Of a DNA stretch of 54,414 bases, positions 4,068-38,948 are shown in pieces. The DNA lies in the IMG/VR virus record IMGVR_UViG_3300008113_008337, positions 1 through 54,414 of that record; one strand, 5' to 3'. The position numbers were made by a program, and so were the translations under genes. Source of the stretch: a virus. The number at the start of each line of letters is the position of its first letter. The stretch's first letter is position 1. Under the pieces are notes generated by a model that had not been told where the DNA came from, did no database searches, and saw only the letters and a list, made by a program, of their open reading frames with translations.

Positions 4068-4928
4068 TTAGATCATTTCATATTCAATTTCAGTATTACC
4101 AAATCCCCAAGCATCTGTATTCCTAGTTTCTTCAAAGTATTCAACCCATTCCCATGGATCGTTGTAGTATTGTTTAGATGGTGACGACCCGTCATTACCC
4201 ATACCTTTATGTGATAAATGGTACAAAGGTAAATCATAGTATGCCTCTAAATTATACCCATTAAGTACTGCTTTCTTCTGTATATTTGTGTCTCCAAAAC
4301 AAGCATATAACATTTGTTCTTCGAATCCTTTAATATTATGCCATACGTCTTTATGGGCTGTTTGAAAATCACCACAACAATTAATTATACTATAATTGTC
4401 ATTAGGAGTTACTTTAGCTGGAAAATATCGCGGTTTGCTCTCAGCATCCATTTTATCTCTAAATTCTCTCCAATTTTCAAACCCCATTTTTTCTAATTCA
4501 GGATATTCTGCTTCTCTTCGTGAAATTGAGTAGAAAGTATTTTTATTTGCTTTAGAGATAAAATCATCCATGTATTCTTTTTTAGGAGCTATTATATCCA
4601 TAGCTGTACTTGTAATCCAATCTGCTTGGCATCTACGAATTAGAATATTTTGAGCTAATATAAAAGCATATGGACTTATTTTTTCATCACCGTTAGTGAT
4701 TATTTTTACTACATCTTCAGGAATAACAAAGTGTCTAATTTTACCTGTTTTTGGGATTTGATTTTTTAATTTCCATAAAAGTGGTCCTTTATCTGCAGGT
4801 GAATTCCAATCACAAAACCAAACTTCATCAAACGTTTCTACCATAGACGTTAAACAAGTGACTACTCGTTCATCTTCTTTATAACCATCATTACGACAAC
4901 CTAATACTATTGCTTTTGTTTCTTTCAT
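4068..4928 (-). CDS. Glycosyltransferase-like protein (GT-A type)
   Basis: A 286-residue protein at the downstream end of the glycan block. It opens with a beta strand (A-I-V-L-G-C-R-N-D-G) and contains W-x-x-S-T-A-M-D-I-I, a likely acidic donor-binding site, and F-G-D-T-N further on; this layout fits GT2-like transferases. I place the start at 4928 rather than 14 codons earlier: that ATG overlaps the TGA of the broken kinase frame (ATGA), a typical coupled junction. Donor and acceptor are unknown. Confidence 0.6.
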   Translation of the reverse strand: MKETKAIVLGCRNDGYKEDERVVTCLTSMVETFDEVWFCDWNSPADKGPLLWKLKNQIPKTGKIRHFVIPEDVVKIITNGDEKISPYAFILAQNILIRRCQADWITSTAMDIIAPKKEYMDDFISKANKNTFYSISRREAEYPELEKMGFENWREFRDKMDAESKPRYFPAKVTPNDNYSIINCCGDFQTAHKDVWHNIKGFEEQMLYACFGDTNIQKKAVLNGYNLEAYYDLPLYHLSHKGMGNDGSSPSKQYYNDPWEWVEYFEETRNTDAWGFGNTEIEYEMI

Positions 4929-5526
4929 ATTGTTGATACTCCTGATTTTTGTACTACTATTGTAGTACATTCTTGTGCAAATTCAATTGCTGATTTAATA
5001 TCTTTTGTTTTAATATAATTTACTACTAAACCTGATAGGAATGTATCTCCCGCTCCTGAGATATCTTTTACTGATACTTCTTGTGTTGGGAAATTTTCAC
5101 CTTGAAATACACAACCATATTTTCCTCTAGTAACTATAGTTTTATTTAATAATACATTATCATTAAGTAAAATCTGTTGATTGTTTTCAAATCACTTATC
5201 ACTACAGCATCATATTCACTCCATTTTATATTTTTTAATGCATTTGGATGTATTAAATCACATTTATCTCCTTCATCAACTCGCAGAAGTAAATGATTAT
5301 ATTTAGAGCAAACATATCTTATTTTTTTGATTTCATTTTCGTTAGTAATAAAATCTACTTTACCACCTAATACTTCTATATTTCGAACTACATTACCTGC
5401 CATTCCTGGGTTAGAGACTTCTGATTGAGGTATGATAACCGCTACTGGAGCCTCAGGAGCCAATCGGTTTACTTTTCCGTAACGAAAAACATCAATACAG
5501 CTATCTCCTATAACTAATATTTTCAT
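4925..5526 (-). pseudogene. PfkB/RfaE-type sugar kinase, broken by an internal frame change
   Basis: The first frame (5526 to 5146) gives a kinase N-terminus: K-I-L-V-I-G-D-S-C-I-D-V, R-L-A-P-E-A-P-V, and N-P-G-M-A-G-N-V, as in heptose-7-phosphate kinases. It reaches A-V-V-I-S-D and then runs into a short foreign tail and a stop. A second frame, from about 5197 down to the TGA at 4925-4927, restores the C-terminus with T-I-V-T-R-G-K-Y-G and the catalytic D-I-S-G-A-G-D-T-F. Joined, the two give only about 200 residues, against about 310 for the family, so a central piece seems lost out of frame near 5195. A sequencing or assembly fault is the alternative. Confidence 0.8.
5146..5526 (-). CDS. 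N-terminal fragment of PfkB/RfaE-like kinase
   Basis: This 126-residue open frame carries the substrate-binding half of a PfkB kinase but not the catalytic G-A-G-D motif, which lies downstream in another frame. The last 12 or so residues are out-of-frame translation. It is unlikely to be active alone. Start at 5526 overlaps the SDR gene stop by 4 bases (ATGA). Confidence 0.7.
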   Translation of the reverse strand: MKILVIGDSCIDVFRYGKVNRLAPEAPVAVIIPQSEVSNPGMAGNVVRNIEVLGGKVDFITNENEIKKIRYVCSKYNHLLLRVDEGDKCDLIHPNALKNIKWSEYDAVVISDLKTINRFYLMIMYY

Positions 5527-6533
5527 CGTCTTAAAAATTTACGTCCTGATTTTACTTTATTTCTCCAATAATCTAGTAAGTCATTCATTGTTTGTTCGAA
5601 TGTTATTTCTGGTCTCCACCCAGTATGGTTTTGGAATTTGGTTGTATCTGGAATTTGTAAGTCAGCATCTATTGGTCTTAAACGCTCAGGATCAGTTATA
5701 ATTTCAATATTTTTAACTGTTGATTGGCTGATTAGATAATTTAACATATCAGCAATTTTACATGTATAAGTTCCACCTATATTGTAATATTCACCTGGTG
5801 TTGGATTAACTGTTACTAACGTATAATATGCTTTAACTGCGTCTCTAACATCAGCATATGTTCTAAGTGAATCTAAATTACCAACGTATATCTTAGGCTC
5901 TTGTAATCCTGCTTCAATCATTGCAATCTGTTTAGCAAATGTTGATTCTGAGAATACATCTCCTCGTCTTGGACCTGTATGAGTAAACATACGTGTAGTC
6001 ATGATGGTCATATTATATGCTTCAGCATAATAGCGACCTACTAAATCTGTTCCTACTTTAGATATTGCATATGGTGATGCTGGGTGAAAATTGCATTCTT
6101 CGTTTATTGGTAATTTTTCTTTAGGTACACGACCAAATACTTCACTTGAAGCACAAACGTGAATTACAGCATTTTTATATTCTGACCTTCTAAGCGCTTC
6201 TAATAAGTTAGTAGTTCCTAAAATATTGGTTTGGAGTGTTTCAACTGGTGAGTCAAATGACGTTTGGGGGTATGATTGTGCAGCCAAATGAAATACGTAA
6301 TTTGGTTTTGATTTATCTACAGCCACTAATAATGAGGCTAAATCATTTAAATCACCATAAATCAATTCAATGCGTTCTTTACTATTGATTTCAGCTGATA
6401 GATGCTCAATATTTTCTAATGAATCATTCCATCGAGCAAGTCCATATATTTTCCAATCAGTATTGGCTAATAAATAGTCAGCTAAATGAGAACCAACCAT
6501 CCCTGTTATACCTGTGATAAAAGCGTTAATCAT
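5523..6533 (-). CDS. GDP-mannose 4,6-dehydratase / GDP-6-deoxymannose reductase-like SDR
   Basis: A 336-residue extended SDR enzyme. The NAD(P) motif is G8-x2-G11-x2-G14, the catalytic residues are S129/S130 and Y155-x3-K159, and the signature H-T-G-P-R-R-G-D is typical of the Gmd/Rmd group that acts on GDP-mannose. The C-terminus (D-P-E-R-L-R-P-I-D-A-D) matches the same group. It would form, or reduce, GDP-4-keto-6-deoxymannose in the cytoplasm. The ColD-like 3-dehydratase at 9214-10377 uses that same keto sugar, which favours the 4,6-dehydratase role. Dehydratase against reductase cannot be settled by eye. Confidence 0.8.
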   Translation of the reverse strand: MINAFITGITGMVGSHLADYLLANTDWKIYGLARWNDSLENIEHLSAEINSKERIELIYGDLNDLASLLVAVDKSKPNYVFHLAAQSYPQTSFDSPVETLQTNILGTTNLLEALRRSEYKNAVIHVCASSEVFGRVPKEKLPINEECNFHPASPYAISKVGTDLVGRYYAEAYNMTIMTTRMFTHTGPRRGDVFSESTFAKQIAMIEAGLQEPKIYVGNLDSLRTYADVRDAVKAYYTLVTVNPTPGEYYNIGGTYTCKIADMLNYLISQSTVKNIEIITDPERLRPIDADLQIPDTTKFQNHTGWRPEITFEQTMNDLLDYWRNKVKSGRKFLRR

Positions 6534-6536
6534 TAT

Positions 6537-7178
6537 TTATTTGTTTATTTGTTTATATAATTTATTTACTGTAGGAACTAAAATAGTAAAATTATCAGCA
6601 GCTATAGTATAAAAAGCTTTATCTCTACTAACACCATTTTTGTTTTTTATATCTCCACTAACTCCTCCTTTCTTAAGTTCAGTATCTAAATTTTCTAATA
6701 CACTATAATATACGGTAGTTTCTATAAATCTATTTATGTCATATGTTTTTTTAAGTTTATATAATAAACTTGAAGTTATTAGTTCTCTACTACTAGAAAA
6801 ATCTCCTTTTTTAAATATATCCCATGTTGAAAGTACCCAATCTTTTGTAAGAATAGGAAGCATTTCATTATGTCTAATAATAGAATCACCATTATCCTTG
6901 TCTTCAAGATGAGAATCATAACATATTCTATGTAATGCTGGGGTTCTCCCAAATGAATCACATTGAGTGAAAAGGGCAAATATATTATCTTGGTACATAT
7001 TTTTTTTAGAAATTATTTCTAAATCCCAATTTTTACTTATATTAATAGTATCATCTGTAATTACCCAATTAAAGTAATAATTATTTTTGCTAATAAATTT
7101 ATATTGGGCTTTTAAGATAGGAAACCAACTATTTTCTATATGAGGAACTATACTCCATCTAACTTCAGAAATTATCAA
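6537..7178 (-). CDS. C-terminal fragment of split glycosyltransferase
   Basis: A 213-residue open frame with only a TTG at its head. It contains W-V-I-T-D-D and C-D-S-F-G-R-T-P-A-L-H-R and lacks the nucleotide-binding N-terminus, which is encoded at 7165-7299 in another frame. If TTG initiation works, this would be a truncated and probably inactive enzyme. Confidence 0.55.
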   Translation of the reverse strand: MIISEVRWSIVPHIENSWFPILKAQYKFISKNNYYFNWVITDDTINISKNWDLEIISKKNMYQDNIFALFTQCDSFGRTPALHRICYDSHLEDKDNGDSIIRHNEMLPILTKDWVLSTWDIFKKGDFSSSRELITSSLLYKLKKTYDINRFIETTVYYSVLENLDTELKKGGVSGDIKNKNGVSRDKAFYTIAADNFTILVPTVNKLYKQINK

Positions 7179-7299
7179 TTATACATAAAATATCAAAATT
7201 GTCTAATGAATTACATTTATCATACAATTCTTTTAATACATTGTATAATCCTATTGGTCTTGATCTAGATTGAACAATTACAACTAAATCTTTATCCAT
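6537..7299 (-). pseudogene. GT2-like glycosyltransferase, split by a frame change
   Basis: A fragment from 7299 to 7165 encodes 44 residues beginning M-D-K-D-L-V-V-I-V-Q-S-R-S-R-P and ending D-I-L-C-I-I-D, the first two strands of a GT-A glycosyltransferase. It then stops. The rest continues in another frame from about 7178 (no ATG; the first possible codon is TTG) with E-V-R-W-S-I-V-P-H-I and W-V-I-T-D-D. The missing middle suggests an internal deletion that also shifted the frame. The gene overlaps its upstream neighbour by 8 bases, as intact genes here do, so the 7299 start is original. Confidence 0.7.
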
Positions 7300-8257
7300 T
7301 TTTATTATTTTTATACCACTCAATAGTTTTTTCTAATCCTTCACGTAATGAAGTTTTTGCTTCCCAACCTACTTCATCTTTAATTCTTGATACATCTACT
7401 AAACGTATTGGGATCATTGTAGGTTTTGTTATATCATAATTAAATTCTGGTTTGTAGCCGTAGATATCTGTTATAGTTTCTACCAATTCAGTAACAGTTG
7501 TTCCTTTACCTGTAGAAGCATTATAAGGTCTTCCAGTAGGTGCTTTTTCTACAACAGTCATTACAGCATCAACTACATCATCAACATAAATAAAATCACG
7601 TGTTTGAGTTCCATCACCCCATACTTCAAACGGATTCATTCCTGCATCTGCTTTTAAAATCAATTGAGGAATAGCATGTCCATTTTCATTAAAAGCATCA
7701 TGAGGTCCATATATAGCTGTAGTACGAACAACTCCAAATTTAGTTTCTGAGATGTCTTGGTAGTAACGGATTACTTGTTCTACATAACGTTTCATCCAAC
7801 CTACACCTCTATATAATCTATGAGGCTCAGAGTTATATGCTTCATCTTCATTTACAGGATGAGAAACATCTGGGTACATGGTTGAACTACCTATAAAACC
7901 AAATAATGGGGTTTTACTTCTAACAGCAGCATCAATCATATTAATTGAAGTAAATAAGTTGTTTCTTACTAAATCCAAGGCATTACTATACTCAGTTTGA
8001 CCTTTAGCACCTCTAATGAATGCTACAAAGTTAAAAACAACATCTATATCTTGTAAAACCATCATACAATCTTCATGTTTCATAAGATCGCATTTAACCA
8101 CTTCTAAATTAGCATGTGGTTCAATCTTTAAACCTCTATTGCTGTAAACAGTTGCTCTTACTTTAGCTCCTTCAGCTAATAATCTTTTGACAGCGGCATG
8201 ACCCGTGATACCTGCTGCTCCTGTAACTAGTACATTTTTTCCTGTGTAAAAACTCAT
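7292..8257 (-). CDS. NAD-dependent epimerase/dehydratase (SDR), GDP-fucose-synthase-like
   Basis: A 321-residue extended SDR with T-G-A-A-G-I-T-G-H near residue 12, G-S-S-T-M-Y-P in the active-site region, and W-G-D-G-T-Q-T-R-D-F-I-Y-V-D-D, a sugar-nucleotide binding motif. The usual catalytic Y-x3-K is displaced: the likely Lys is in V-G-W-M-K and has Val, not Tyr, four residues before; a Tyr lies seven before. It is paired with a second SDR of similar kind and lies in the GDP-sugar cluster. Function: epimerisation or reduction of a GDP-keto-sugar. Confidence 0.78.
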   Translation of the reverse strand: MSFYTGKNVLVTGAAGITGHAAVKRLLAEGAKVRATVYSNRGLKIEPHANLEVVKCDLMKHEDCMMVLQDIDVVFNFVAFIRGAKGQTEYSNALDLVRNNLFTSINMIDAAVRSKTPLFGFIGSSTMYPDVSHPVNEDEAYNSEPHRLYRGVGWMKRYVEQVIRYYQDISETKFGVVRTTAIYGPHDAFNENGHAIPQLILKADAGMNPFEVWGDGTQTRDFIYVDDVVDAVMTVVEKAPTGRPYNASTGKGTTVTELVETITDIYGYKPEFNYDITKPTMIPIRLVDVSRIKDEVGWEAKTSLREGLEKTIEWYKNNKNG

Positions 8258-8258
8258 A

Positions 8259-9221
8259 TTATTTATTTAAAACGTTTACTCTTTTATCAACTAAATCTTT
8301 ATTTAATATAAACCAATTTATTGCGTCTTCCACGCCTTCTTTGATAGAAATTTCAGGATAAAAACCATATGAATTAGCACGTTCCATACTAAATAATCTT
8401 TTAGCATCACCTGATGGTTTTTCGGGTGACCATTGAATAGGTTTACTAAAATAATTAGCTACTATTTCTGCTACTTCTTTAATAGTTACTCCTGTACCTG
8501 ATCCTAAATTAATAGGTTTAGTAATTTTATTTTCAACGGCAAATATCATTCCTCTAGCTACATCTTTAGCATGGATAAAATCTCTAATAGGTGAACCATC
8601 TCCCCATACTTCAAGAATATCATTTTCATATGCTTTTCTAATAAGTGAAGGAACTACCATAGCATTTTTTAAATCAAAATTATCCCAAGGACCATATACA
8701 TTTGCTGGGCGTACAATAGAACATTTGCCCTCACCGTATTGTTTTTCGTAAGCTTCGCATTGTAATTCACCCATTCTCTTAGCCCAACCACCATACCAAT
8801 CATTAGGAGATGGTGAACCTTTCCAAACATCATCTTCATAGAATATTTCCGCTGGAGTGTAAACACCTACTGTGCTTGTATACAAATACCATTTGACATT
8901 AGCTTTCATAGCTGCCTCTAACATATTAGTGTTAAATTGCATCATAGGACCCATAATATCAGCTGGTTGTTCCATAGTTATTTTTGGAGAACATTTAATA
9001 CCTACTAAGTTAAAAACATAATCTTGTCCTTGACATATGTTTTGACATTGGTCAAAATACAAAAGATTAGCTTTAACAAAATTAACTTCTTCAGGTAAAC
9101 CCAAAGGCTCATTAATATCAGCTACAGTTACGTTTGCTCCTTTTTCTAATAAGAGACTAACTAATTGACGGCCTATCATTCCTGCTCCGCCTGTTACTAA
9201 AACTTTTTGATTTTTAAACAT
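8259..9221 (-). CDS. NAD-dependent epimerase/dehydratase (SDR)
   Basis: A 320-residue extended SDR with V-T-G-G-A-G-M-I-G at residues 9-17, T-S-T-V-G-V-Y, and W-G-D-G-S-P-I-R-D-F-I-H-A-K-D. Its active site reads W-Y-G-G-W-A-K, so Tyr to Lys spacing is five, not the canonical four. It overlaps the aminotransferase-fold gene by 8 bases and is two bases from the other SDR, so all three are co-translated. It likely reduces or epimerises the keto-sugar made by the 3-dehydratase. Confidence 0.78.
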   Translation of the reverse strand: MFKNQKVLVTGGAGMIGRQLVSLLLEKGANVTVADINEPLGLPEEVNFVKANLLYFDQCQNICQGQDYVFNLVGIKCSPKITMEQPADIMGPMMQFNTNMLEAAMKANVKWYLYTSTVGVYTPAEIFYEDDVWKGSPSPNDWYGGWAKRMGELQCEAYEKQYGEGKCSIVRPANVYGPWDNFDLKNAMVVPSLIRKAYENDILEVWGDGSPIRDFIHAKDVARGMIFAVENKITKPINLGSGTGVTIKEVAEIVANYFSKPIQWSPEKPSGDAKRLFSMERANSYGFYPEISIKEGVEDAINWFILNKDLVDKRVNVLNK

Positions 9222-10377
9222 TGTTTAATTTATTACAAAGATTAATGATTTGAGTTTCTGTTAATTCTGGGTGATTGCCTATATACAAAGCATTATAGTG
9301 AATATAATTAGCGTTAGGTAATTCACCTACTACTGCGTGATCTAATTTGTTTAAATAAGGTTGTAGAGCTTGATTTCCACCACCTGCTGTTCCTAACCTG
9401 TATTCTACTTTTTCCTCTTCTAATATACTACAAACTGATTTTAATTTATCTTTATATTCTTTGTTTAACACTAGTGGTAAAGCAAAATTACTGCTCCCCT
9501 CAGTATCAAATTGGGTAAAATATTTATGAAAATCTAAATTTTTTAACCATGTATTTAAGTTATCAGTACGTTTTTGAATGTTGTAGTCAAGGCGTTTCAT
9601 TTGTTCAATACCTAATACAGCATTTATTTCCGTGCTTCTCATATTAAATCCTGCTACAGCAAATGTAAATAATGGATTTAGATATGGGTATCTTTCTTGG
9701 TATTTAGCTTGTAATTCTTGAGATGCTTCTCTAGTCATACCGTGTGAACGAAATAATTTAGCTAAATCGTGTAATTCTGGCGTATTTACGCAGACTACTC
9801 CACCTTCAACGGTAGTTATATGGTGGCCAAAGTAAAATGAAAATAACGAAATATCTCCAAATGTACCTATTTTTTGACCATTATAAGTAGCACCATGTGA
9901 TTCACAACAATCTTCAATTAATAATATATCATTATCTTTAGCTATTTTAATGATTTCATCACTGATACCATTAAATCCTAAACAATGGATTAATACTATA
10001 GCTTTAGTTTCATTTGTGATTGCATTTTTAATATTTTCAGCTGTAATAGCTAAATTTTTCATGTCAATATCTACAATTACTGGTTTCATCCCTAATTGAG
10101 CAATTGAAGATAAGTCTGAGACCCATCCAAGTGGAGGTACTATTACTTCTCCTTTTCCTTTTAATTCTTTAACCATGGCAATCGATATGTAGTTTGCCGA
10201 AGCCCCAGAATTAACCATCACAGAATGTTTTACACCTAACCATTCAGACCAAATACGTTCAAATTCTTTTACTTTAGGTCCGTTTGTTAATCTTTCACCA
10301 CTCAAAATGAAATCTGACAGTACTTGTCTATCAGATTTAGTTACATTGTCATTAATTAAAGGCCAATTATATTCCAT
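9214..10377 (-). CDS. ColD-like GDP-4-keto-6-deoxymannose 3-dehydratase (DegT fold)
   Basis: A 387-residue PLP enzyme of the DegT/DnrJ/EryC1 fold. In aminotransferases of this fold a Lys in a K-x-x-T-T-G-E-G-G setting binds PLP. Here the segment is F-Y-F-G-H-H-I-T-T-V-E-G-G, with H185 in the Lys position. Lys-to-His at this site is the hallmark of 3-dehydratases such as ColD (colitose route) and E1/RfbH. The enzyme would remove the 3-hydroxyl from a GDP-4-keto-6-deoxy sugar, giving a 3,6-dideoxy product. The neighbouring Gmd-like gene supplies the substrate. Confidence 0.85.
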   Translation of the reverse strand: MEYNWPLINDNVTKSDRQVLSDFILSGERLTNGPKVKEFERIWSEWLGVKHSVMVNSGASANYISIAMVKELKGKGEVIVPPLGWVSDLSSIAQLGMKPVIVDIDMKNLAITAENIKNAITNETKAIVLIHCLGFNGISDEIIKIAKDNDILLIEDCCESHGATYNGQKIGTFGDISLFSFYFGHHITTVEGGVVCVNTPELHDLAKLFRSHGMTREASQELQAKYQERYPYLNPLFTFAVAGFNMRSTEINAVLGIEQMKRLDYNIQKRTDNLNTWLKNLDFHKYFTQFDTEGSSNFALPLVLNKEYKDKLKSVCSILEEEKVEYRLGTAGGGNQALQPYLNKLDHAVVGELPNANYIHYNALYIGNHPELTETQIINLCNKLNNV

Positions 10378-11278
10378 TTTTTATTTGTTTTAATTTTTCT
10401 AATATTTTTTCAGCTGTAGGAGGTAGATTATCTACTTGAGGATAAAATCCTGCCGTTCTTGGTTCTAAACCTAATGTATAAACTTTTTTTCCGGTAGCCA
10501 AATTTAACTCATTAGCTATACTACTCGCTACACCTTCAACATAATCATCATCTGTTACTAATCCACCATATTTTGAATTATCTAATGCTAGTTTCCATGA
10601 AAACGGAATATTAAATGGTCTAAGCCATAATTGGTGAATTATATTAAGTTTAATACCTTCTTGCTCAGCTAATTGAACTAATTTATTCATTTCTAAACGA
10701 GTAATAGAAATAGGGAACATAGTAAAATCAGCTTGTGGATGAACTATATTTTCAAATTCCTCAGTATTATCGTATGATCTTCTATGTTCAGATACATAAT
10801 ATGGATCATCATCATTCATATAAGAATCATATATGTTTTGGTATTCACCTGGTGTCATAGGTGCCACTACTTTTATACCTGGCATTCTATGGACTAATGA
10901 ATGATGAGAAGATCCTGCTACTGGGCCTATTCCACCTTCCATAGCAATACTTCTTACAAATACAGGACATGGGCGATTCCATATTTCTTTTGATTTAGCA
11001 GCATAATTAACAATTGAAGTTGCGTTATACCATTGAAAACCTTGGTAGCGAACAACATATATTGATCTGTCACCTGCTAAAGCAGCACCTGTTACTATGG
11101 CACCACCAGCAACATCAGCCATAGATAATTCAATCATACCATCTTTTTCATATAACTCAGGTAATGTACCTCCTACCCAACCTACTGCGGTCAGGCATTG
11201 ACCATAACATTTTCCTTTACCTTCTGTAAGATGTTTTCTTGTAATTTCTTTTATTGTATCTCTAACTGTTGTTGCCAT
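10367..11278 (-). CDS. TPP-dependent E1 beta subunit-like protein
   Basis: A 303-residue homologue of the beta chain of 2-oxoacid dehydrogenase E1 or of the C-terminal half of transketolase. Visible landmarks are M-A-D-V-A-G-G-A near residue 54, V-R-Y-Q-G-F and V-F-V-R-S-I-A-M-E-G-G, where the beta chain helps to bind TPP. It overlaps the alpha-chain gene by 28 bases. No E2/E3 partner is present, so a carbon-carbon ligase or sugar-modifying role is more likely than dehydrogenase work. AAGTT-ATG start context. Confidence 0.8.
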   Translation of the reverse strand: MATTVRDTIKEITRKHLTEGKGKCYGQCLTAVGWVGGTLPELYEKDGMIELSMADVAGGAIVTGAALAGDRSIYVVRYQGFQWYNATSIVNYAAKSKEIWNRPCPVFVRSIAMEGGIGPVAGSSHHSLVHRMPGIKVVAPMTPGEYQNIYDSYMNDDDPYYVSEHRRSYDNTEEFENIVHPQADFTMFPISITRLEMNKLVQLAEQEGIKLNIIHQLWLRPFNIPFSWKLALDNSKYGGLVTDDDYVEGVASSIANELNLATGKKVYTLGLEPRTAGFYPQVDNLPPTAEKILEKLKQIKNGI

Positions 11279-12081
11279 AACTTTTCTACTAACTGTTTAT
11301 TTTTTAAATCAATTTTATCTGCTTCTTCTCCTAATGATTTTAATTCTTTTTCATATTGGGTTGAGTAATCATCATCTTGTCCTGCTCCTGAGTGCCAATA
11401 CTTTCTAGTTGTATTTACATTTAGAAGCATAGGGCCTTCAAAATTATAATTTTTTAAAGCTGAGTGTATGATGGTTGGATTGTCACCTATATTTTGTCCT
11501 TCCATTTTAAAGGCTTTAGCCACATCACTCATTTCCCAATTACGTCTTATTTTCTTTTCAGTTAATATAGATAAATTATTATCTTCTACTACAAATAGAA
11601 TAGGTAGATTTTTAGTTGACGCCCAACCCATAGCACCTAAAACATAATCTTCTTCGGCGGATGCATCTCCCATCACTACGATAGTTGGTTTACGTGTATG
11701 ATAGCAATGGCCTACTGCTATAGGTACTTGGCTACCCATTAAACCATCATGTCCAAAGATATTCTTTTTGATTGAATGTATCGAGGCAGATCCTCCCATT
11801 CCGTTAGCGCATCCTGTTTTTCTACCTAATAATTCATCTATAAGTTCAATAGGATCAGCCCCAGCACATAAGTAGTGTGAATGACCTCTATGTTGAATAA
11901 AGATATTAGGTTCAATACCTTTCTCTTCTAGTAAAGTGTATATACTAGCAGGAATATATTCTTGGCCTGCTGATAGATAAACAGGGATTTTAATATTTTT
12001 ATTTTGTACGTTTTGATATACTTGATTTTCAAAGTGCCTACAAAACGAAGCCTTTTTAAAAGCGTTTATTCTATAACTCAT
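11251..12081 (-). CDS. TPP-dependent E1 alpha subunit-like protein
   Basis: A 276-residue E1-alpha type protein. The TPP motif is clear: G138-D139-A140, then N168-N169 in V-V-E-D-N-N about 30 residues later, which hold the Mg-diphosphate. H-R-G-H-S-H-Y and G-M-G-G-S-A-S are also typical. With the beta-like gene it should form an alpha2beta2 enzyme. In this sugar cluster it could add a two-carbon unit to a keto-sugar (as in branched sugars) or transfer a ketol; both are inferences. It is shorter than dehydrogenase alpha chains (about 360-400). Confidence 0.82.
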   Translation of the reverse strand: MSYRINAFKKASFCRHFENQVYQNVQNKNIKIPVYLSAGQEYIPASIYTLLEEKGIEPNIFIQHRGHSHYLCAGADPIELIDELLGRKTGCANGMGGSASIHSIKKNIFGHDGLMGSQVPIAVGHCYHTRKPTIVVMGDASAEEDYVLGAMGWASTKNLPILFVVEDNNLSILTEKKIRRNWEMSDVAKAFKMEGQNIGDNPTIIHSALKNYNFEGPMLLNVNTTRKYWHSGAGQDDDYSTQYEKELKSLGEEADKIDLKNKQLVEKLWQQQLEIQ

Positions 12082-12457
12082 TTTCTATAAATTTTAAAGT
12101 ATCATCCCAATTTTCAAAACGATATCCATTATCATCAATATAAAGTTCGGCTCTAGGTTTTTCAGATGTAATAGATGAAATATATTGATCAACATTATAC
12201 TTTTTAAACCATTCCCAAACCAATACAGATCCGGTTTTACCATTTACAAGAGGTCTATCTGTTTTAGCTTTAGCTGTGAATATAATAATTTTATACTTTT
12301 GTGATAATAATTTTAGAGCTTCTAAAGCACCTGGTAGAGGTTCACCGTAACACGTTCCATCTCCCCATCCTTTATTAGCATTATGAATTACACCATCAAA
12401 ATCGATAGCTAAATTCTTTTTTTCATTTTCAAAACCAGGAGGATAAAAATTAGCCAT
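12071..12457 (-). CDS. HAD-like phosphatase
   Basis: A 128-residue HAD hydrolase core. Motif I is I-D-F-D-G-V-I at residues 18-24 (nucleophile D19, acid D21); I-I-F-T-A-K gives motif II, and Y-I-D-D-N-G gives motif IV. There is almost no cap, so it may act on a sugar phosphate or a larger substrate. It lies between the E1 alpha gene and a cupin gene with short overlaps, so a sugar-phosphate phosphatase is the natural guess. Confidence 0.78.
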   Translation of the reverse strand: MANFYPPGFENEKKNLAIDFDGVIHNANKGWGDGTCYGEPLPGALEALKLLSQKYKIIIFTAKAKTDRPLVNGKTGSVLVWEWFKKYNVDQYISSITSEKPRAELYIDDNGYRFENWDDTLKFIENEL

Positions 12458-13130
12458 TGCTTTTAATAATCATTATAATAGTTTGTGGATCAACTTTATT
12501 AAATACTTCAATTAGTTGTTTAACAGTACTTGCAGCCACTATATCACCTGGGCTAGCCACATTTTGCCCATAATCTGATTGTATACCACCCTTTAAAAAC
12601 ATAACATTCAATGAATCATCTATGTCTAAAAACGAAGATACGTCAGTTATACTTTTCACAGATAACACACAATTTGAAAAATTGTAATCTATACTTTCAC
12701 CAACTACTGGTTCTTTAATCCATAAACAATCTTCTACTTTAGGTATCTCATGTGTACTGTCTTCATATGGTTTACCTTCACGGCCATAGCTATCTCTGAA
12801 TCTAACTAGATCTTGTTTATCTACTGGCGTTTCAATCTCAAACACAAATGCTCCTTTTTCATCTGTAGCTTTAGTGCTATGGAATAATCCTTTACGAATC
12901 ATTACTTTATTACCCGGACTTAATTTATTAGTATGGTTAAAGAACGATACCTCAGCTTTACCATCTAATAATATTAGCCCTGTAGTCTTTTTAGGGTGGC
13001 AATGTAACGAAGTTGAGTGAGTATATTTGATATGAAGAAACCACAAGGCCACATGCTCATTTTCATAAGCTAAGTATTCGTAGCCCCATGGTTTCTTTAC
13101 AATGTTTATATCGTAATTGTCGTTTTTCAT
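12450..13130 (-). CDS. Cupin protein, sugar isomerase/epimerase-like
   Basis: A 226-residue protein beginning with K-P-W-G-Y-E-Y, as in mannose-6-phosphate isomerase-like cupins, and carrying a cupin metal site T-S-L-H-C-H-P-K-K plus a second motif around F-H-S-T-K. Residues 30-120 form the first barrel; the rest may be a second, divergent barrel. It shares its start base with the stop of the DJ-1-like gene. Substrate unknown; a sugar phosphate or GDP-sugar is likely from context. Confidence 0.65.
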   Translation of the reverse strand: MKNDNYDINIVKKPWGYEYLAYENEHVALWFLHIKYTHSTSLHCHPKKTTGLILLDGKAEVSFFNHTNKLSPGNKVMIRKGLFHSTKATDEKGAFVFEIETPVDKQDLVRFRDSYGREGKPYEDSTHEIPKVEDCLWIKEPVVGESIDYNFSNCVLSVKSITDVSSFLDIDDSLNVMFLKGGIQSDYGQNVASPGDIVAASTVKQLIEVFNKVDPQTIIMIIKSNG

Positions 13131-13690
13131 TAAATGATAGTTTCTGGGTTGTGTAATCTTTGTTCGTGTGTTTCAAACGCAATACGCATCCAATCTCCCA
13201 TAAAGTCGTAATGAGGGCAAGAGATAATATTACCATCTACTACAACCGGACCTCTACTGTAAGTAGCTCCTGCATTTTCAATGTCAACATCTATACTGTA
13301 GTAACCAGATAACGTTCTACCTTTAAGTATTTTAGCTGATATTAATAATTGAGCGCCATTACATACTGAAAATATGGTTTTGTTAGCAGCATTCCACTCT
13401 TGGATAAACTTTAAAACACCTTTTTCTTGTCTTACTTTTTCAAGTGCCTTAACTCCTCCAGGTACTAATAGTATTTCATATTCTTTTAGATATTGTTGTC
13501 TTGTTGTTTCATTTTCAAATGCAGATGTTTCAATGTCACAAGGCATATGAGTACCTAAACTACCCCAAATTTTACCTACTTTATTAGCCATCAACGTTAC
13601 TTGATAACCATGTTCTTTTAAACTGTAGTATGGGTAAATTAATTCGTGATCTTGGAATTTTTCCCAAGTGATAATGAGTGCTTTTTTCAT
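13130..13690 (-). CDS. DJ-1/PfpI family protein
   Basis: A 186-residue DJ-1/PfpI domain. The nucleophile elbow is F-S-V-C110-N-G-A-Q, with L-L-V-P-G-G at residues 74-79, and H-Y-D-F further on. Members act as deglycases, amidases or chaperones. It is the first gene behind a promoter (13695-13725) and leads the sugar-nucleotide operon. Its link to that pathway is unclear. Confidence 0.78.
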   Translation of the reverse strand: MKKALIITWEKFQDHELIYPYYSLKEHGYQVTLMANKVGKIWGSLGTHMPCDIETSAFENETTRQQYLKEYEILLVPGGVKALEKVRQEKGVLKFIQEWNAANKTIFSVCNGAQLLISAKILKGRTLSGYYSIDVDIENAGATYSRGPVVVDGNIISCPHYDFMGDWMRIAFETHEQRLHNPETII

Positions 13691-13694
13691 GTTG

Positions 13695-13725
13695 TTAATA
13701 TAATAATTTTATTTTGACTTTCAAA
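13695..13725 (-). promoter_or_regulatory. Promoter, TTTG-N19-TATATTAA
   Basis: Minus-strand TTTG (13725-13722) and TATATTAA (13702-13695) are 19 bases apart. The -33 box is embedded in TTTTGAAAGTCAAAA, a perfect 6-bp palindrome with a 3-base loop. The start codon at 13690 lies 4 bases after the -7 box, so the transcript would be nearly leaderless. The same block precedes the clamp loader and sliding clamp genes. Confidence 0.75.
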
Positions 13726-13727
13726 AT

Positions 13728-14222
13728 CTATTTATCTCTTTTTTGTAAAATTGGATTATCAATAGGCCATTCTATATCTAATTCAGGATCGTTCCATTTT
13801 AATGTAAACTGCTCGTCAACATCAGGATAATTACCTTCATAAGCCCACTTATAATGGAATATTGAGTGGTCACTCATTACTAAAAACCCATTGCCAAATC
13901 CTGGGGGTAGTAAAACGGATTGTCTAATTTTGTCTGACAACATCATGCTAGTCCATTTTTTGTAATTTTTAGAGTTAGGTCTATTATCGACTACCACAAA
14001 ATACAATTCACCGTATAAGCATTCTATTAGTTTCCATGACTTAGTATCGCCATGAATTCCTCTTAAAACATGTTTTCTTGAGGTTGATACTTTATCATGA
14101 TTAAATTTTAAATCAGTTCTTGGAAATTCTCCTTCTTTCCATAATGTCCATAATTCTCCTCTAAAATCGTAATGAACATTATGTTTGTATATTAATACAT
14201 CGGGAAATAATTGTATTCTCAT
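13728..14222 (-). CDS. dTDP-4-dehydrorhamnose 3,5-epimerase-like protein (RmlC fold)
   Basis: A 164-residue RmlC-type cupin with R-G-E-L-W, V-L-R-G-I-H57-G-D and W-K-L-I, the core of the nucleotide-sugar 3,5-epimerases. The second His of the family, in P-x-G-x-x-H-G-F, is replaced by Asn111 (P-P-G-F-G-N-G-F). It could therefore be a one-site epimerase or act on an unusual sugar. It overlaps the GT10 gene by 4 bases. Confidence 0.82.
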   Translation of the reverse strand: MRIQLFPDVLIYKHNVHYDFRGELWTLWKEGEFPRTDLKFNHDKVSTSRKHVLRGIHGDTKSWKLIECLYGELYFVVVDNRPNSKNYKKWTSMMLSDKIRQSVLLPPGFGNGFLVMSDHSIFHYKWAYEGNYPDVDEQFTLKWNDPELDIEWPIDNPILQKRDK

Positions 14223-16918: not shown

Positions 16919-17829
16919 ATAATTCCTTTTTTCTCTAAATGTTTAATACCTCGCTCCAAATATAAATTCATATTAGCTTCAAAACGTTCTCTTTGTTGTG
17001 GAGCATTTCCTTTCATAGTCATAAAATCTTTATGATAAGAAACAAATCCTTTACCTTTTAATGAACCGATAGGATATTCAAAAATGGTTTGACCTCTTAA
17101 AACATATTCTTGGAAGTCAGCTCCTCTTGATTTAGCATATTCCGTTAACATTAATGACCACCAGTCCCAAGGACCATAACCATACCAATCATCTTGTACA
17201 GGAGCAAAATCTTCATAAAATTCTCTATTGTATAAATCTAACCACCAAGCCCATTTACTGCGTTGTGTAGGTTCCAAATATGGAGCTACATTATCTGTTT
17301 TCATATGGTGCCTAATATCAAATACATCTGTAGCATTCCAATCAGCATAAGGTACATTCATATACCTTTCATTAGTAATCTCATCCCAAGTGTGATCCCA
17401 CATTTTATGAATTTCAGGAGTAATTACAAAGTATTTATTTTTAACTAATTTGGTTGACTCTAGCATTAGGGCTAATAAATGCTCACTAAAGTACATATCA
17501 GGAGTAATATTAATATAATAATCTGCTCCACAATATGAATTTCTTTGCATATCTAAAAGACCGTAACATTCATTACCTTCATATATTTTAGGGTTAACTT
17601 TATAATCTTTTAATAAAATATTTAAGTCATTAAATTTTTGTTTAAAAAATTCTTTAGGTAAAATTGTCTTATCCCAATTAATTAAATAATCTGACATATT
17701 CATTACCGTGTCAATTTCAATCTCAACATCATCGGGGAGATAATATCTAGATTTTTTTAATTGGATATATGATAATAGAGCATAATCTATTTCATAAGGC
17801 ATAATATGATAGGAAATTTTTACTTTCAT
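16915..17829 (-). CDS. Glycosyltransferase-like protein, 304 aa
   Basis: A Trp/Tyr-rich protein with a GT-A look: an N-terminal beta strand (K-I-S-Y-H-I-M-P-Y), Y-Y-I-N-I-T-P-D-M-Y in place of a D-x-D site, and W-Y-G-Y-G-P-W-D-W-W. It overlaps genes on both sides by 4 bases within the glycan operon. I cannot assign a family number; a role in polymer or side-chain assembly is inferred from context. Confidence 0.5.
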   Translation of the reverse strand: MKVKISYHIMPYEIDYALLSYIQLKKSRYYLPDDVEIEIDTVMNMSDYLINWDKTILPKEFFKQKFNDLNILLKDYKVNPKIYEGNECYGLLDMQRNSYCGADYYINITPDMYFSEHLLALMLESTKLVKNKYFVITPEIHKMWDHTWDEITNERYMNVPYADWNATDVFDIRHHMKTDNVAPYLEPTQRSKWAWWLDLYNREFYEDFAPVQDDWYGYGPWDWWSLMLTEYAKSRGADFQEYVLRGQTIFEYPIGSLKGKGFVSYHKDFMTMKGNAPQQRERFEANMNLYLERGIKHLEKKGII

Positions 17830-19052
17830 ATAATTTGTAATGTTGGGAAATATTTTACAAATAAATCATTTTCATTTTGTCTTTTAGCTTCAATTCGAGT
17901 TTTAATTTCCTTAAAGAAATTCCAAGCTAAAGGAACAAAAATAACTTTATCATTATTTGTCAACTCTAATAATTTTTCTGAACTGTAAATTGGGATGTCC
18001 ATTCCTGGGGTTAATAGATTTTGTTTTAATGGATTATCATCAATAATGTAATCTAAATTGATTTTACCAAAGTTTAGTAATGTGTTACCTTTAGCTGCTG
18101 CTCCATAACCTACTAATTTATATCCTCTATTTTTATATTTATCAAGAATATCTTTTAAATCAAATGTTGTTTTATAACATTTTGAAGCATAGTCAGGATA
18201 AGTTAAAATATTATATAAACCTTTTTCCTCTTCAAATTTTAACATTTCTTGAGTACCTGTTTTACCTAAAAAGTCTGTCTTGGTAATAACAAAAACATAA
18301 CTAGTACCATGTATATCTGTTTTAAATACATCACTTAATACTAAACCACATCTTTCAACTAACATTTTCATTGACTTAGTATTAAAGAAAGATAAATGTT
18401 CATGATAAATAGTATCAAATTCATTATTAAGTACCATATTAGCTTGTGATGTTTGGATAAATAAAACAGAACCATCATGCATTACTTGTTTACAAGCATT
18501 TAAAAAATCTACTGTATAACGATTATGAGCAAAAACATTCTGAGCTGTAATAATGTCAAATGCTTTGTCTTTAAATAAGTTTACTGTTTCTGTATTAAAA
18601 TAATCACAAATGATATTATGTCCTTTAGATACAGCATTATTATATAAATTCTCAGCTGGGTCAATGCCAAATGTTTGGATACCTAGTTTTTGATATGAAT
18701 CTAATTGAGTAGCATCATTACAAGCAATATCTAAAATACTTGTAGCATTAGGTACATATTCTAAAGTTTTAGAAGCAAAGTCATCAAAATAATCCCTTAA
18801 TGTTTGAGAAGTACCACTAACATAAAGATAATTCTTGAACATAATATCAGGATTAACAGTATGACTTAATTGAAGATGTTGGCAATGAGAACAAAGATTA
18901 AGTTTTAAAGGGTAAGTTTCTTGTTCTTGACCACTATGGTAATTATTTGCTAATGGTTGATCACTTAAATCTAAAACTGTTCTTAAATCATTATTACCAC
19001 AAGCTAAACATTCTGTGTTAGCAATATAGGTTATTTGAAATTCATTATTCAT
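17826..19052 (-). CDS. Sugar C-methyltransferase-like protein
   Basis: A 408-residue three-part protein. The N-terminus has a zinc site C15-x2-C18 and C54-x2-C57, followed by a SAM domain around residues 106-200 (I-L-D-I-A-C-N-D-A), and a C-terminal domain with G-Y-G-A-A-A-K-G-N-T. This three-domain plan is that of NDP-sugar 3-C-methyltransferases and relatives. Its usual substrate is a 4-keto-deoxysugar nucleotide, which matches the pathway here. SAM motif I is unusual, with Ala and Asn where Gly is common. Confidence 0.8.
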   Translation of the reverse strand: MNNEFQITYIANTECLACGNNDLRTVLDLSDQPLANNYHSGQEQETYPLKLNLCSHCQHLQLSHTVNPDIMFKNYLYVSGTSQTLRDYFDDFASKTLEYVPNATSILDIACNDATQLDSYQKLGIQTFGIDPAENLYNNAVSKGHNIICDYFNTETVNLFKDKAFDIITAQNVFAHNRYTVDFLNACKQVMHDGSVLFIQTSQANMVLNNEFDTIYHEHLSFFNTKSMKMLVERCGLVLSDVFKTDIHGTSYVFVITKTDFLGKTGTQEMLKFEEEKGLYNILTYPDYASKCYKTTFDLKDILDKYKNRGYKLVGYGAAAKGNTLLNFGKINLDYIIDDNPLKQNLLTPGMDIPIYSSEKLLELTNNDKVIFVPLAWNFFKEIKTRIEAKRQNENDLFVKYFPTLQII

Positions 19053-27892: not shown

Positions 27893-29512
27893 TTACATTC
27901 CGAAATCCATCATTGGATTATCATCTTTTTTCTTATCAGATGGTTTTTCGTGAATAACACATTCTGTCATTAGTAAAGTGATAGCAGCTGCTGCAGCATT
28001 TTGAATAGCTGAGCGTACTACTTTAGTAGGATCAATAATACCAGATTCGTAAGCATCCACTAATTGATTTGCTGAGATATGAGGGACAGCATTTTTATTA
28101 TCGTCTGAATATAGACTCATTTCCCAATGGCTTGCTTTTTCTCCTGCGTTACTGAGGATTTGTTCAAATGGTTTTATACAAGCATCAAATACGATTTTAC
28201 CACCTTTTCCAAAATCAGTATTATCTCTATCGGAAATAGCATTTCTAGCATGTAACAATGCTACACCTGCTCCAGGTAAAATACCTTCTTCAATAGCGGC
28301 TTTAGTAGCTTGTAAAGCATCATCCAAACGATCTTTCTTTTCTTTCATTTCGATTTCAGTTCCACCACCTACGTTTATAATAGCTACACCACCTACCATT
28401 TTAGAAAGACGTTCTTGTAATTTTTCTATTTCATACGGTGAATTTGACTTATCGATTTGAGCTTTTAATTCTAAAATACGAGCTTCGATCTTATCTACAT
28501 CTCCTTTACCATCAACAATAGTAGTTGTATCTTTACCTACAGTAACAGTACGAGCATTACCAAACCAATCTTTATTAAATTTATCTAATCTCATACCTTT
28601 AATATGAGAAACAACAGTACCTCCTGTTAATGTAGCAATATCTTCTAAAATTAATGTTCTGCGTTCTCCAAAATCAGGTGCCTTAACAGCTACTGTTTTT
28701 AGAATACCTCTCATTTTATTTACTACTAACACTGATAATACTTCATCTCCAAAATCTTCTGCTATAATTAGAAGTGATTTTTGTTGTTGTGATACTGATT
28801 CTAGGATAGGTAATAAATCTTTTGCTTGGTTTAATCTTCCGTCTACAATCAACAATAAAGCATCAGTTAAAACAGCATTCATTGTATTATTATCGGTAAC
28901 AAAGAATGGTGATTTATAACCACGATCAAATTGTAATCCTTCTACTACTTCAAGTGATGTTTCACCTGAACGTGATTCCTCTACAGTTACAACACCATCT
29001 CTACCTACTTTTTCTAAAGCAGTAGCAACTAAATTACCTATTTCTTCATCACCATTAGCTGATAAAGTAGCAATCTGTTTAATTTGGGTTTCGTCTGTAA
29101 TATCTACTGATATTTCTTTTAGTTTTGATGTTACTTCTTTAACTGCTTGCTCTATCCCGCGTTTAACTTGCGTAGCATTAGTAGATGAATAAGCCGTTGC
29201 TTCTAAGGCTTGAGTCGCAATACTATGCGCTAAAACGGTAGAAGTTGTAGTTCCATCACCAGCAACATCAACTGTTTTTTGGGCTGCTTGTTTAATAACA
29301 GTTGCAGCCATATTTTCAATTGGATCTTCCAATGTGATTGTTTTAGCAACTGAAACACCGTCTTTAGTTGATGATACTTGGCCATATTCTTTTTCAATCA
29401 ATACGTTACGACCAAAAGGCCCCATAGTTACTGAAACGGCTTTATTTACTTTATCAATGCCGTGTTGAAGCTTTTCTTTAGCTTCTCTATCAAATTTAAT
29501 TATTTTACTCAT
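27893..29512 (-). CDS. groEL: Chaperonin GroEL (Cpn60)
   Basis: A full-length group I chaperonin of 539 residues, close to the usual 548. T-M-G-P-F-G-R-N-V at 29-37, K-D-G-V-S-V-A-K at 50-57 and G-D-G-T-T at 85-89 form the ATP site. The hydrophobic apical region and the intermediate domain are present. The tail ends P-M-M-D-F-G-M instead of the cellular GGM repeats. It lies 5 bases after groES, so the phage carries a complete chaperonin operon. It would fold phage proteins, possibly capsid or the large modified enzymes here, in the host cytoplasm. Confidence 0.97.
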   Translation of the reverse strand: MSKIIKFDREAKEKLQHGIDKVNKAVSVTMGPFGRNVLIEKEYGQVSSTKDGVSVAKTITLEDPIENMAATVIKQAAQKTVDVAGDGTTTSTVLAHSIATQALEATAYSSTNATQVKRGIEQAVKEVTSKLKEISVDITDETQIKQIATLSANGDEEIGNLVATALEKVGRDGVVTVEESRSGETSLEVVEGLQFDRGYKSPFFVTDNNTMNAVLTDALLLIVDGRLNQAKDLLPILESVSQQQKSLLIIAEDFGDEVLSVLVVNKMRGILKTVAVKAPDFGERRTLILEDIATLTGGTVVSHIKGMRLDKFNKDWFGNARTVTVGKDTTTIVDGKGDVDKIEARILELKAQIDKSNSPYEIEKLQERLSKMVGGVAIINVGGGTEIEMKEKKDRLDDALQATKAAIEEGILPGAGVALLHARNAISDRDNTDFGKGGKIVFDACIKPFEQILSNAGEKASHWEMSLYSDDNKNAVPHISANQLVDAYESGIIDPTKVVRSAIQNAAAAAITLLMTECVIHEKPSDKKKDDNPMMDFGM

Positions 29513-29517
29513 AGTCT

Positions 29518-29808
29518 TTATTTTTCTAAAACAGCTAATAAATCTTGTTCTTTCATAACAATGTATTCTTCACCTTCAACAGTCATTTTAGTTCCACCAA
29601 ACGCAGGAAATACTACTGTTGATCCTACTTCTATTGTGTTTGGAATTAAGGTTCCATGAATGTTAATTAATCCAGGGCCTGAAGCTATTACCTCACCCAT
29701 TAATGGTTTTTCTTTACCAGCATCAGGAACGATAATGTTCCCATACATTGTTTCGGTTTCGTCTTGTTGTTTGATTACAACGTGATTATGTAACGGTTTT
29801 ATTTTCAT
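29518..29808 (-). CDS. groES: Co-chaperonin GroES (Cpn10)
   Basis: A 96-residue Cpn10, near the usual 97. The mobile loop falls around E-T-E-T-M-Y-G-N-I-I-V-P at 17-28, which docks on GroEL; G-E-V-I-A-S-G-P-G follows. It is transcribed from a promoter inside the broken sliding clamp gene's 3' end. Start context AAGTT-ATG. Confidence 0.95.
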   Translation of the reverse strand: MKIKPLHNHVVIKQQDETETMYGNIIVPDAGKEKPLMGEVIASGPGLINIHGTLIPNTIEVGSTVVFPAFGGTKMTVEGEEYIVMKEQDLLAVLEK

Positions 29809-35312: not shown

Positions 35313-36041
35313 TTATCTATATCCCTCCATCTGTAATTTAATCATATCCATTACTTCTTCTTTAGCTGTTCTACTATGATCAGCAAATACACCACTTACT
35401 TCACTTGTAACCATTGAAGCACCAAAATGTTTAACACCACGACAACTTACACAGTTGTGGAATGAATGTACTACAACCATTACACCTTGATTACCTTCAC
35501 ATATTTGATCTACAGCATTGTGAATTGCTACTGTAAGTTGTTCTTGAATAGCACCTCTACGAGCAAAATGTTCTGCTATACGATTTAGTTTAGATAAACC
35601 AATAACCTTACCTTCAGCACCTGAAACATAGGCAATATGCACTTTACCTAAAATTGCTTGATGATGATGAGAACACATACTTACAATCGGAATATCTCTT
35701 TCCAATATAATACCTTTGTAACCATCACTAGGAAATGCTGTGATTTCAGATGGTAATTCATATCTACCTTTCCATAAATCATTAACATATGCTTTAGCTA
35801 CACGTCTTGGAGTGTCCATACTATTAGGATCATTTTTCCAATCAACACCTAATGCATCTAAAAATTTACCATATGCTTCTGTAGCTTGGTCAATGATATC
35901 ATTTTTTTCAGTTGTGTTTAAGGAGCGATGTTCTCCTGCTTTAATCAATGAATTTAATTGTAGTGAAATACCATTTGCAAAACCAGCACCTGCTGTTTCT
36001 AATTTTTTAATGTCAACTACTGTTTTTCTTTTATTTTCCAT
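35313..36041 (-). CDS. folE: GTP cyclohydrolase I
   Basis: A 242-residue FolE. M-C-S-H-H-H-Q carries two zinc ligands and the third is in H-N-C-V-S-C-R-G-V; G-K-V-H-I-A-Y-V follows. It converts GTP to dihydroneopterin triphosphate, the entry step to the 7-deazaguanine route. QueD, QueE and QueC lie upstream in the same region, and DpdA beyond them. The first 25 residues look like an extra leader. A promoter (36046-36077) precedes it inside hpt. Confidence 0.92.
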   Translation of the reverse strand: MENKRKTVVDIKKLETAGAGFANGISLQLNSLIKAGEHRSLNTTEKNDIIDQATEAYGKFLDALGVDWKNDPNSMDTPRRVAKAYVNDLWKGRYELPSEITAFPSDGYKGIILERDIPIVSMCSHHHQAILGKVHIAYVSGAEGKVIGLSKLNRIAEHFARRGAIQEQLTVAIHNAVDQICEGNQGVMVVVHSFHNCVSCRGVKHFGASMVTSEVSGVFADHSRTAKEEVMDMIKLQMEGYR

Positions 36042-36045
36042 ATTT

Positions 36046-36077
36046 TAAATCTAATCAATTTCTTCTGACTTTCCAAA
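36046..36077 (-). promoter_or_regulatory. Promoter, TTTG-N20-TAGATTTA
   Basis: TTTG (36077-36074) and TAGATTTA (36053-36046) are 20 bases apart on the minus strand. The -33 region is TTTGGAAAGTCAGA, a partial palindrome. The folE ATG lies 4 bases further. It is located within the 3' end of hpt. Confidence 0.6.
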
Positions 36078-36566
36078 TACTACAGAACGATTTCTATAAA
36101 GTCCTTTTTCTCCATCTAATCCATAACCGCATAACCAAGCTTCATCTGTTAGTTCTATACCATGTAGTACAGGCCATTGACTTGTATGTTTTTTAAATAG
36201 TACTACTGGAGTAATAGAACGAGGTTTATGGTATTTTCCCAAATGATCTATTAATTTAGTTAATGTATTACCTGAATCCAGAATATCATCTATGACATAC
36301 ACATTTTTTCCTGTAATATCTGTAGTGATGTCTTTAGTTATCTTGACTGTGAATTGTTCTTGTCCTTGATAAGATTTAGCTTGGATAAAATCAATCTCAC
36401 AATCTATATCTATAGATTTTACTAAATCAGTAAAGAACATAAACGCTCCGTTCAACACACAAATCATTACTGGTGGGCTAGGATCATTGTAATGCTTATT
36501 ATATATTTCAATAGCAATTTTGTCTACAGCCGCTTGAAGTTGAGTTTTATTATATAGTATTCTCAT
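36051..36566 (-). CDS. hpt: Hypoxanthine-type phosphoribosyltransferase
   Basis: A 171-residue PRTase. V-Y-V-I-D-D-I-L-D-S-G-N-T-L is the PRPP-binding loop and C-V-L-N-G-A-F-M-F the N-terminal substrate loop. It would salvage hypoxanthine or guanine to the nucleotide. Its last base overlaps the start of the upstream nucleotidyltransferase-like gene's stop, so they are coupled. Confidence 0.85.
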   Translation of the reverse strand: MRILYNKTQLQAAVDKIAIEIYNKHYNDPSPPVMICVLNGAFMFFTDLVKSIDIDCEIDFIQAKSYQGQEQFTVKITKDITTDITGKNVYVIDDILDSGNTLTKLIDHLGKYHKPRSITPVVLFKKHTSQWPVLHGIELTDEAWLCGYGLDGEKGLYRNRSVVFGKSEEID

Positions 36567-37021
36567 TACATATTAAAATTTTCGTTTTTCAATAATAAAA
36601 AGTCGCTAATATCTTTAGTACGTTTGTAACGTTTTTTAGCATCTATAATCTCATTTATAGATACTATACCATAGTACTTATTATTGTAGTAATAATATGT
36701 TGGCACTAAAGTTTGTTTATATGGATCAACAACTAATACATTTATAATATACCCGTTCTTTTTAAATTTATAATTTGCATCGTTTGCATACTGTCCATTA
36801 TTTACTATATCAAAAAACTGTAAAGCTTTTAAATAGTCTTTTTGTTTTTCAGTAGGATCAGTGACGATAATATCTAGATCGCCTATTGGTCTTGAAAAAT
36901 TCAACCCATGTAATTTTAAGATTAATGATCCTCCTAATCTAACGTTCTTTGTTGATGAGGCTTCAAGCAAATCATCAATAATAATTTGAAATGTGTTTAA
37001 GTAATTGTCTAATTCTTTCAT
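36566..37021 (-). CDS. Nucleotidyltransferase-fold protein
   Basis: A 151-residue protein with R-L-G-G-S-L-I-L-K-L-H-G and R-P-I-G-D-L-D-I-I-V, the G-S and D-x-D motifs of the pol-beta-like NTase fold. Such domains occur in AbiEii-type toxins and in tRNA or antibiotic nucleotidyltransferases. No antitoxin partner is visible. Function open. AAGTT-ATG start context. Confidence 0.65.
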   Translation of the reverse strand: MKELDNYLNTFQIIIDDLLEASSTKNVRLGGSLILKLHGLNFSRPIGDLDIIVTDPTEKQKDYLKALQFFDIVNNGQYANDANYKFKKNGYIINVLVVDPYKQTLVPTYYYYNNKYYGIVSINEIIDAKKRYKRTKDISDFLLLKNENFNM

Positions 37022-37027
37022 AACTTT

Positions 37028-37562: not shown

Positions 37563-37565
37563 AAC

Positions 37566-38892: not shown

Positions 38893-38894
38893 AA

Positions 38895-38926
38895 TAATTT
38901 TAAAATAAAAAAACACCTCCCTCAAA
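38895..38926 (-). promoter_or_regulatory. Possible promoter in terminator, TTTG-N20-TAAAATTA
   Basis: TTTG (38926-38923) lies in the loop of the terminator hairpin and TAAAATTA (38902-38895) 20 bases further on the minus strand. The -7 match is weaker than elsewhere. The queD ATG follows 2 bases on. Confidence 0.42.
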
Positions 38927-38939
38927 TGAAGGAGGTGTT
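38905..38939 (-). terminator. Intrinsic terminator
   Basis: A 9-bp stem AACACCTCC/GGAGGTGTT (38912-38920 with 38931-38939) has a 10-base loop and a T run on the minus strand side (about 38914-38908). It ends the transcript of the small HTH gene at 38949-39161. Confidence 0.82.
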
Positions 38940-38948
38940 AACTAATGC

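Follow-up and report, generated by a model that had tools for sequence, protein, structure and literature searches.

The virus studied here carries a minus-strand sugar gene cassette in which a pair of E1-type subunits, alpha and beta, stands beside a Gmd-like dehydratase, two SDRs and a DegT-fold enzyme. We suggest that the product of the cassette is a GDP-activated 3,6-dideoxyheptose with a branch at C4, destined for a surface glycan; to this proposal we give about an even chance, and we know of no such sugar. The E1 beta subunit has Asp at a catalytic position, and this is an unusual, conserved signature of the group to which the pair belongs. A broader reading, which we hold more tentatively, is that C-branched GDP-3,6-dideoxyheptoses of cell-surface glycans are the product of an undescribed Asp-type subfamily of E1 carboligases, common to SAR11 and other marine Proteobacteria, CPR bacteria and T4-like phages, with which the phages rewrite host surface sugars. 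What is new here is the subfamily, the sugar and the setting; the E1-type two-carbon branching chemistry itself is already known. If the broader reading is true, ThDP ketone-branching extends from antibiotic sugars to the GDP-heptose surface sugars of very common marine bacteria and their phages, and it is carried out by a carboligase with an unusual Asp replacing the ThDP-activating Glu. It also provides a specific hypothesis for how E1-carrying phages alter host surfaces.

Gene content and base sugar

The window, i.e., the whole stretch of DNA that was analysed, covers a linear virus record, 54,414 bases long, whose replication genes are T4-like. The nearest relatives of its DNA polymerase are those of Microcystis phage Mel-JY01 (35%) and cyanomyoviruses, and the phage is of a marine or freshwater type. 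The cassette (5523-14222; Table 1) is transcribed from high to low coordinates, beginning with the RmlC-like gene and passing through the DJ-1/PfpI, cupin, HAD, E1 alpha, E1 beta and DegT genes to the two SDRs, after which come an unknown ORF, the Gmd-like SDR and a broken RfaE-like kinase. All the genes listed in the original prediction (Gmd/Rmd-like, two SDRs, DegT, E1 alpha and beta) are present on the minus strand, and the HAD, cupin, DJ-1/PfpI and RmlC-like genes lie within the same span, though they were not named there. It had also proposed a search for this gene order elsewhere. The same order is found again in dozens of viral contigs, so the association of these genes goes beyond chance.

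Table 1. Features of the cassette, in the order of transcription
Feature	Position	Strand	Remarks
RmlC-like NDP-4-keto-sugar 3,5-epimerase	13728..14222	-	PF00908 132.8 bits; under rmlC equivalog cut-off
DJ-1/PfpI protein	13130..13690	-	Conserved Glu16-Cys110-His160; often adjoins E1 pair
Cupin	12450..13130	-	Often adjoins E1 pair
HAD-like phosphatase	12071..12457	-	By inspection, without Pfam match; kept in viral and Thiothrix-like loci
E1 alpha-like ThDP subunit	11251..12081	-	GDA...EDNN ThDP/Mg motif and RxH retained
E1 beta-like ThDP subunit	10367..11278	-	Asp55 at catalytic Glu position
DegT-fold, ColD-like sugar 3-dehydratase (predicted)	9214..10377	-	His185 replaces PLP Lys
Extended SDR, GDP-fucose-synthase-like	8259..9221	-	GWAK for YxxxK, kept in the module's relatives; candidate reductase/epimerase
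Extended SDR, GDP-mannose 3,5-epimerase/GDP-fucose-synthase-like	7292..8257	-	Without catalytic Tyr of YxxxK
Unknown ORF	6537..7178	-	Between SDR and Gmd-like gene
GDP-sugar 4,6-dehydratase, likely GDP-D-glycero-D-manno-heptose type	5523..6533	-	Best solved match 7us5
RfaE domain I (heptose kinase)-like gene, broken	4928..5526	-	Lacks about 45 codons; reading frame shifts near 5191

The closest characterised relative of the 4,6-dehydratase is, by a clear margin, the GDP-D-glycero-D-manno-heptose 4,6-dehydratase of C. jejuni (PDB code: 7us5; 368 bits, 52% identity). The runners-up among solved structures are the RMD 2pk3 (193 bits) and the GMD 1db3 (149 bits), and the protein misses the gmd equivalog (NCBIfam TIGR01472) with 185.7 bits against a curated cut-off of 415. 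HddA-like GHMP kinases are found in 37 of the 48 bacterial E1 loci, and GmhA-like isomerases and HddC/GmhB-like proteins in 13 of the 48 each; in NCBIfam, these proteins match the HddA, GmhA and GmhB/HddC models best or nearly best, yet the scores fall under the equivalog cut-offs. Because the dehydratase is nearest to a heptose enzyme and the E1 relatives adjoin HddA-like heptose kinases, GDP-D-glycero-D-manno-heptose is the likely starting sugar. It is better supported than GDP-mannose, the base sugar of the original prediction, which we have dropped. The window's own kinase-like gene is broken, with a remnant ORF at 5146-5526 where the relatives in viral contigs have about 243 aa, and we infer from this that the GDP-heptose is supplied by the host. 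In pelagimyophages, rfaE genes have been reported among the glycan genes (PMC7029224).

As predicted originally, the DegT enzyme (PF01041, 263.6 bits) has His in place of the PLP lysine, the mark of the ColD-type PLP 3-dehydratases. This residue, His185, falls in the column of the catalytic His of ColD, which is changed to Asn in the mutant 3b8x and to Lys in the mutant 2r0t. Among solved proteins, it is nearest to ColD of E. coli (198 bits) and to Yersinia E1-type dehydrases, and among the DegT proteins that neighbour E1 genes 66 of 72 are His-type and 5 Lys-type. The phage protein fails the RfbH equivalog (PRK15407; 223.4 bits against a curated cut-off of 423). By these alignments, it is probably a ColD-like sugar 3-dehydratase. 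A similar His-type DegT (FYFGHHMTTIEGG) is encoded by Synechococcus phage ACG-2014f (NC_026927.1; L106:7980-9173), where it is annotated as an aminotransferase or hypothetical protein and is probably also a 3-dehydratase. As in the window, it lies beside phage GDP-sugar SDRs, but that cassette has no E1 pair and its SDR keeps YAIAK.

Both SDRs of the window (7292-9221) have GWxK-type motifs without the catalytic Tyr of YxxxK, and the SDR at 8259-9221 shares the loss of this Tyr with its relatives in viruses and bacteria. Their assignment to a reduction step is thus uncertain. The cupin and DJ-1 genes accompany the E1 pair in most loci. However, the cupin is present in only 5 of 13 SAR11-family E1 genomes at E<=1e-30 and missing from the other 8, and we have rejected the idea that it is indispensable to the enzyme. 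Neither a profile search nor AF2/Foldseek led beyond generic cupins for it, with low coverage.

The E1 pair

The alpha-like subunit matches PF00676 (E1_dh) and PDH E1 alpha, and the only other domain is TPP_enzyme_C; the beta-like subunit matches the transketolase pyrimidine domain. An AF2 model of E1 beta (pLDDT 86) is nearest to PDH E1 beta (VIA-align Z of about 32, rmsd 2.4, 298 residues aligned), and the next fold neighbours are DXS, split transketolase and transketolase (Z 24 to 27). This neighbourhood bears on the main alternative, in which the pair would work like a split transketolase and feed sedoheptulose-7-phosphate, or a different ketose, into the heptose pathway as a precursor, with no branch. 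DXS and the split transketolase beta 6yaj are indeed among the neighbours, but the model lies closer to PDH E1 beta than to 6yaj (Z 26.5), and Transketolase_N (PF00456), which would be expected of a split transketolase, is absent from the alpha-like subunit by profile search.

The Glu at position 59 of PDH E1 beta is the residue that activates ThDP. At this column, Asp (Asp55 in the window) is found in 88 of 88 module copies, window included, and the canonical Glu occurs only in the PDH reference and in paralogous E1 beta proteins of four loci (L060, L061, L069, L090). Since the activating Glu is replaced by Asp in every copy, catalysis is not assured or may be different. This change, and the fact that the remaining genes suffice for a GDP-3,6-dideoxyheptose as in C. 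jejuni (PMC10440746), would suit a plain dideoxyheptose cassette with a dead or vestigial E1 pair. We consider this very unlikely, because the ThDP/Mg and His residues of both subunits are invariant over a range that runs from phages to CPR bacteria, whereas a dead pair is expected to decay. In the four glycan loci with the paralogues, the paralogue is a second E1 beta, whose canonical Glu lies in TPLSE, and a second E1 alpha is found in L069, L090, L102 and other loci.

The original prediction described the E1 pair as lacking E2 and E3, and this holds: the E2 catalytic domain (PF00198) was not found in 12 viral records, that of the window and those of 11 relatives, which are possibly fragments, in a search that found its target in 10 of 14 control genomes, and E3 was not found among 20 scanned cassette ORFs. 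Without E2 alongside and without the catalytic Glu, the pair does not belong with the E1 of PDH complexes, and we have rejected a role in PDH or acetoin metabolism, given that E2 was not found in these 12 records and that the neighbours are sugar genes. It shares with the alphaKADH2 systems of aldgamycin, paulomycin (Plm8/Plm9), kibdelomycin (KbDH-alpha/beta) and avilamycin (AviB) a two-gene E1 pair without E2/E3 inside a keto-deoxysugar cluster. In those systems, transfer of a pyruvate-derived two-carbon unit to a keto-sugar has been proposed or shown, as for aldgamycin, paulomycin and kibdelomycin (PMC12247030, PMC4802897). They differ in acting on dTDP-type sugars of actinomycete antibiotics, while the cassette is a GDP-heptose cluster for a surface glycan, found in phages, marine Proteobacteria and CPR. 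The Asp is a feature of the cassette, and the alphaKADH2 enzymes are likened to it by description, not by that residue. The pair is a distinct group, with Plm8/9, AviB and KbDH known here by description rather than sequence. The yersiniose and erwiniose enzymes (YerE, ErwE) also resemble our proposal, in that a PLP 3-dehydratase acts first and a 3,6-dideoxy-4-keto NDP-sugar is then branched with the help of ThDP. However, YerE is a single-chain flavoprotein of the decarboxylase (acetolactate-synthase) type acting on a CDP-hexose, unlike the two separate E1-type chains here. The best reading of the pair is a stand-alone ThDP carboligase; the donor, position and activity are inferred, and we put this reading at roughly evens.

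Distribution and co-occurrence

Relatives of E1 beta occur at 39 viral loci (53-85% identity) and at 48 loci in bacterial genomes (45-67% identity). These genomes belong to Pelagibacteraceae, Thiothrix-like Gammaproteobacteria, SAR116, Betaproteobacteria, Omnitrophota, Verrucomicrobia and CPR groups. Among named phages, there is no relative of either subunit at 60% identity or above and matches are weak. A literature search, incomplete in coverage, gave no relevant report of phages that use an E1 pair to make glycans. Matches on plasmids are 22-28% identical and were set aside as ordinary keto-acid dehydrogenases. In viruses as well as bacteria, the surroundings of the pair repeatedly include B12-type radical SAM proteins and PhyH-like dioxygenases (L080:6406-7923, L063:12440-14488, L090:14278-15051 and similar).

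Co-occurrence was analysed in 197 SAR11-family genomes, of which 13 have E1 beta, 30 the His-DegT motif and 44 an HddA-like kinase. The kinase is present in all 13 E1 beta genomes vs 31 of 184 others (p=7e-10) and His-DegT in 11 of 13 vs 19 of 184 (p=1e-8), with p-values that ignore kinship and treat related genomes as independent. Ten of the 11 E1 beta/His-DegT pairs are 1.6-7.2 kb apart. In one of the two E1 genomes without His-DegT (G054), the contig ends inside the kinase and a DegT could be off the contig. The E1 pair is tied even more tightly to the heptose kinase than to DegT, and this counts against the branching reading and in favour of the split-transketolase alternative. However, within the 44 kinase genomes E1 beta tracks His-DegT (11 of 25 with it vs 2 of 19 without; p=0.017, kinship again ignored). 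E1 beta is missing from 14 of the 25 genomes with both HddA and His-DegT, which fits an optional tailoring step. An E1 that is optional on top of a kinase and 3-dehydratase operon is the pattern predicted for a late tailoring enzyme, since a precursor-making transketolase needs the kinase only. This pattern favours late tailoring over a precursor-making transketolase and is suggestive, not conclusive. Overall, we regard the split-transketolase alternative as quite unlikely.

Proposed pathway

We propose a branched-sugar pathway that joins the C. jejuni dideoxyheptose route to the precedents for E1-type two-carbon transfer. In C. jejuni, GDP-3,6-dideoxyheptoses are made by a 4,6-dehydratase, a PLP 3-dehydratase, an epimerase and a reductase (PMC10440746). 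The pathways of serotypes HS:5 and HS:11 are like the cassette in the GDP-heptose 4,6-dehydratase, the PLP 3-dehydratase, a cupin-type epimerase and an SDR-type C4 reductase. They have no E1 pair, and their 3-dehydratase is 62-67% identical to ColD, from which the phage DegT is far more distant. In the phage, GDP-D-glycero-D-manno-heptose, probably from the host, would be 4,6-dehydrated by the enzyme at 5523-6533, and the His-type DegT would strip the C3 hydroxyl, giving GDP-3,6-dideoxy-4-keto-heptose. The E1 pair, acting without E2/E3, would then decarboxylate an alpha-keto acid on ThDP, presumably pyruvate by analogy with the antibiotic enzymes, and attach the two-carbon unit to the ketone, presumably at C4. 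Finally, the RmlC-like epimerase and one or both SDRs would complete the sugar, although the order of these late steps may differ.

The original prediction is plausible in its core. It had 3-dehydration followed by ThDP branching, an order that fits the co-occurrence data, but its base hexose probably gives way to a heptose. It had also called an E1-type version new. This stands for GDP-sugars, surface glycans and phages, but E1-type enzymes are known on dTDP-sugars (PMC12247030, PMC4802897).

It could also be that the E1 pair has nothing to do with the DegT product and instead donates a two-carbon or acyl group to some other sugar or substituent within this glycan. No DegT is found nearby in 7 of 30 bacterial loci of at least 18 kb, and the frequent partners of the pair include the cupin and DJ-1. 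We think this unlikely in view of the compact order E1a-E1b-HddA-DegT in SAR11 and the adjacency of E1b to DegT in phages. In line with published views of pelagimyophage glycan genes (PMC7029224), the branched heptose would probably be displayed by the host cell, to keep out rival phages, and not by the virion.

Elsewhere in the window, a C-methyltransferase (Methyltransf_13/14; 17826-19052), of the kind that methyl-branches deoxysugars, lies beside another SDR and could provide a second branching step. By reading only, GroEL/GroES-like genes are seen at 27893-29808, and FolE-, QueE-, QueD- and QueC-like genes at 35313-40774 suggest 7-deazaguanine synthesis.
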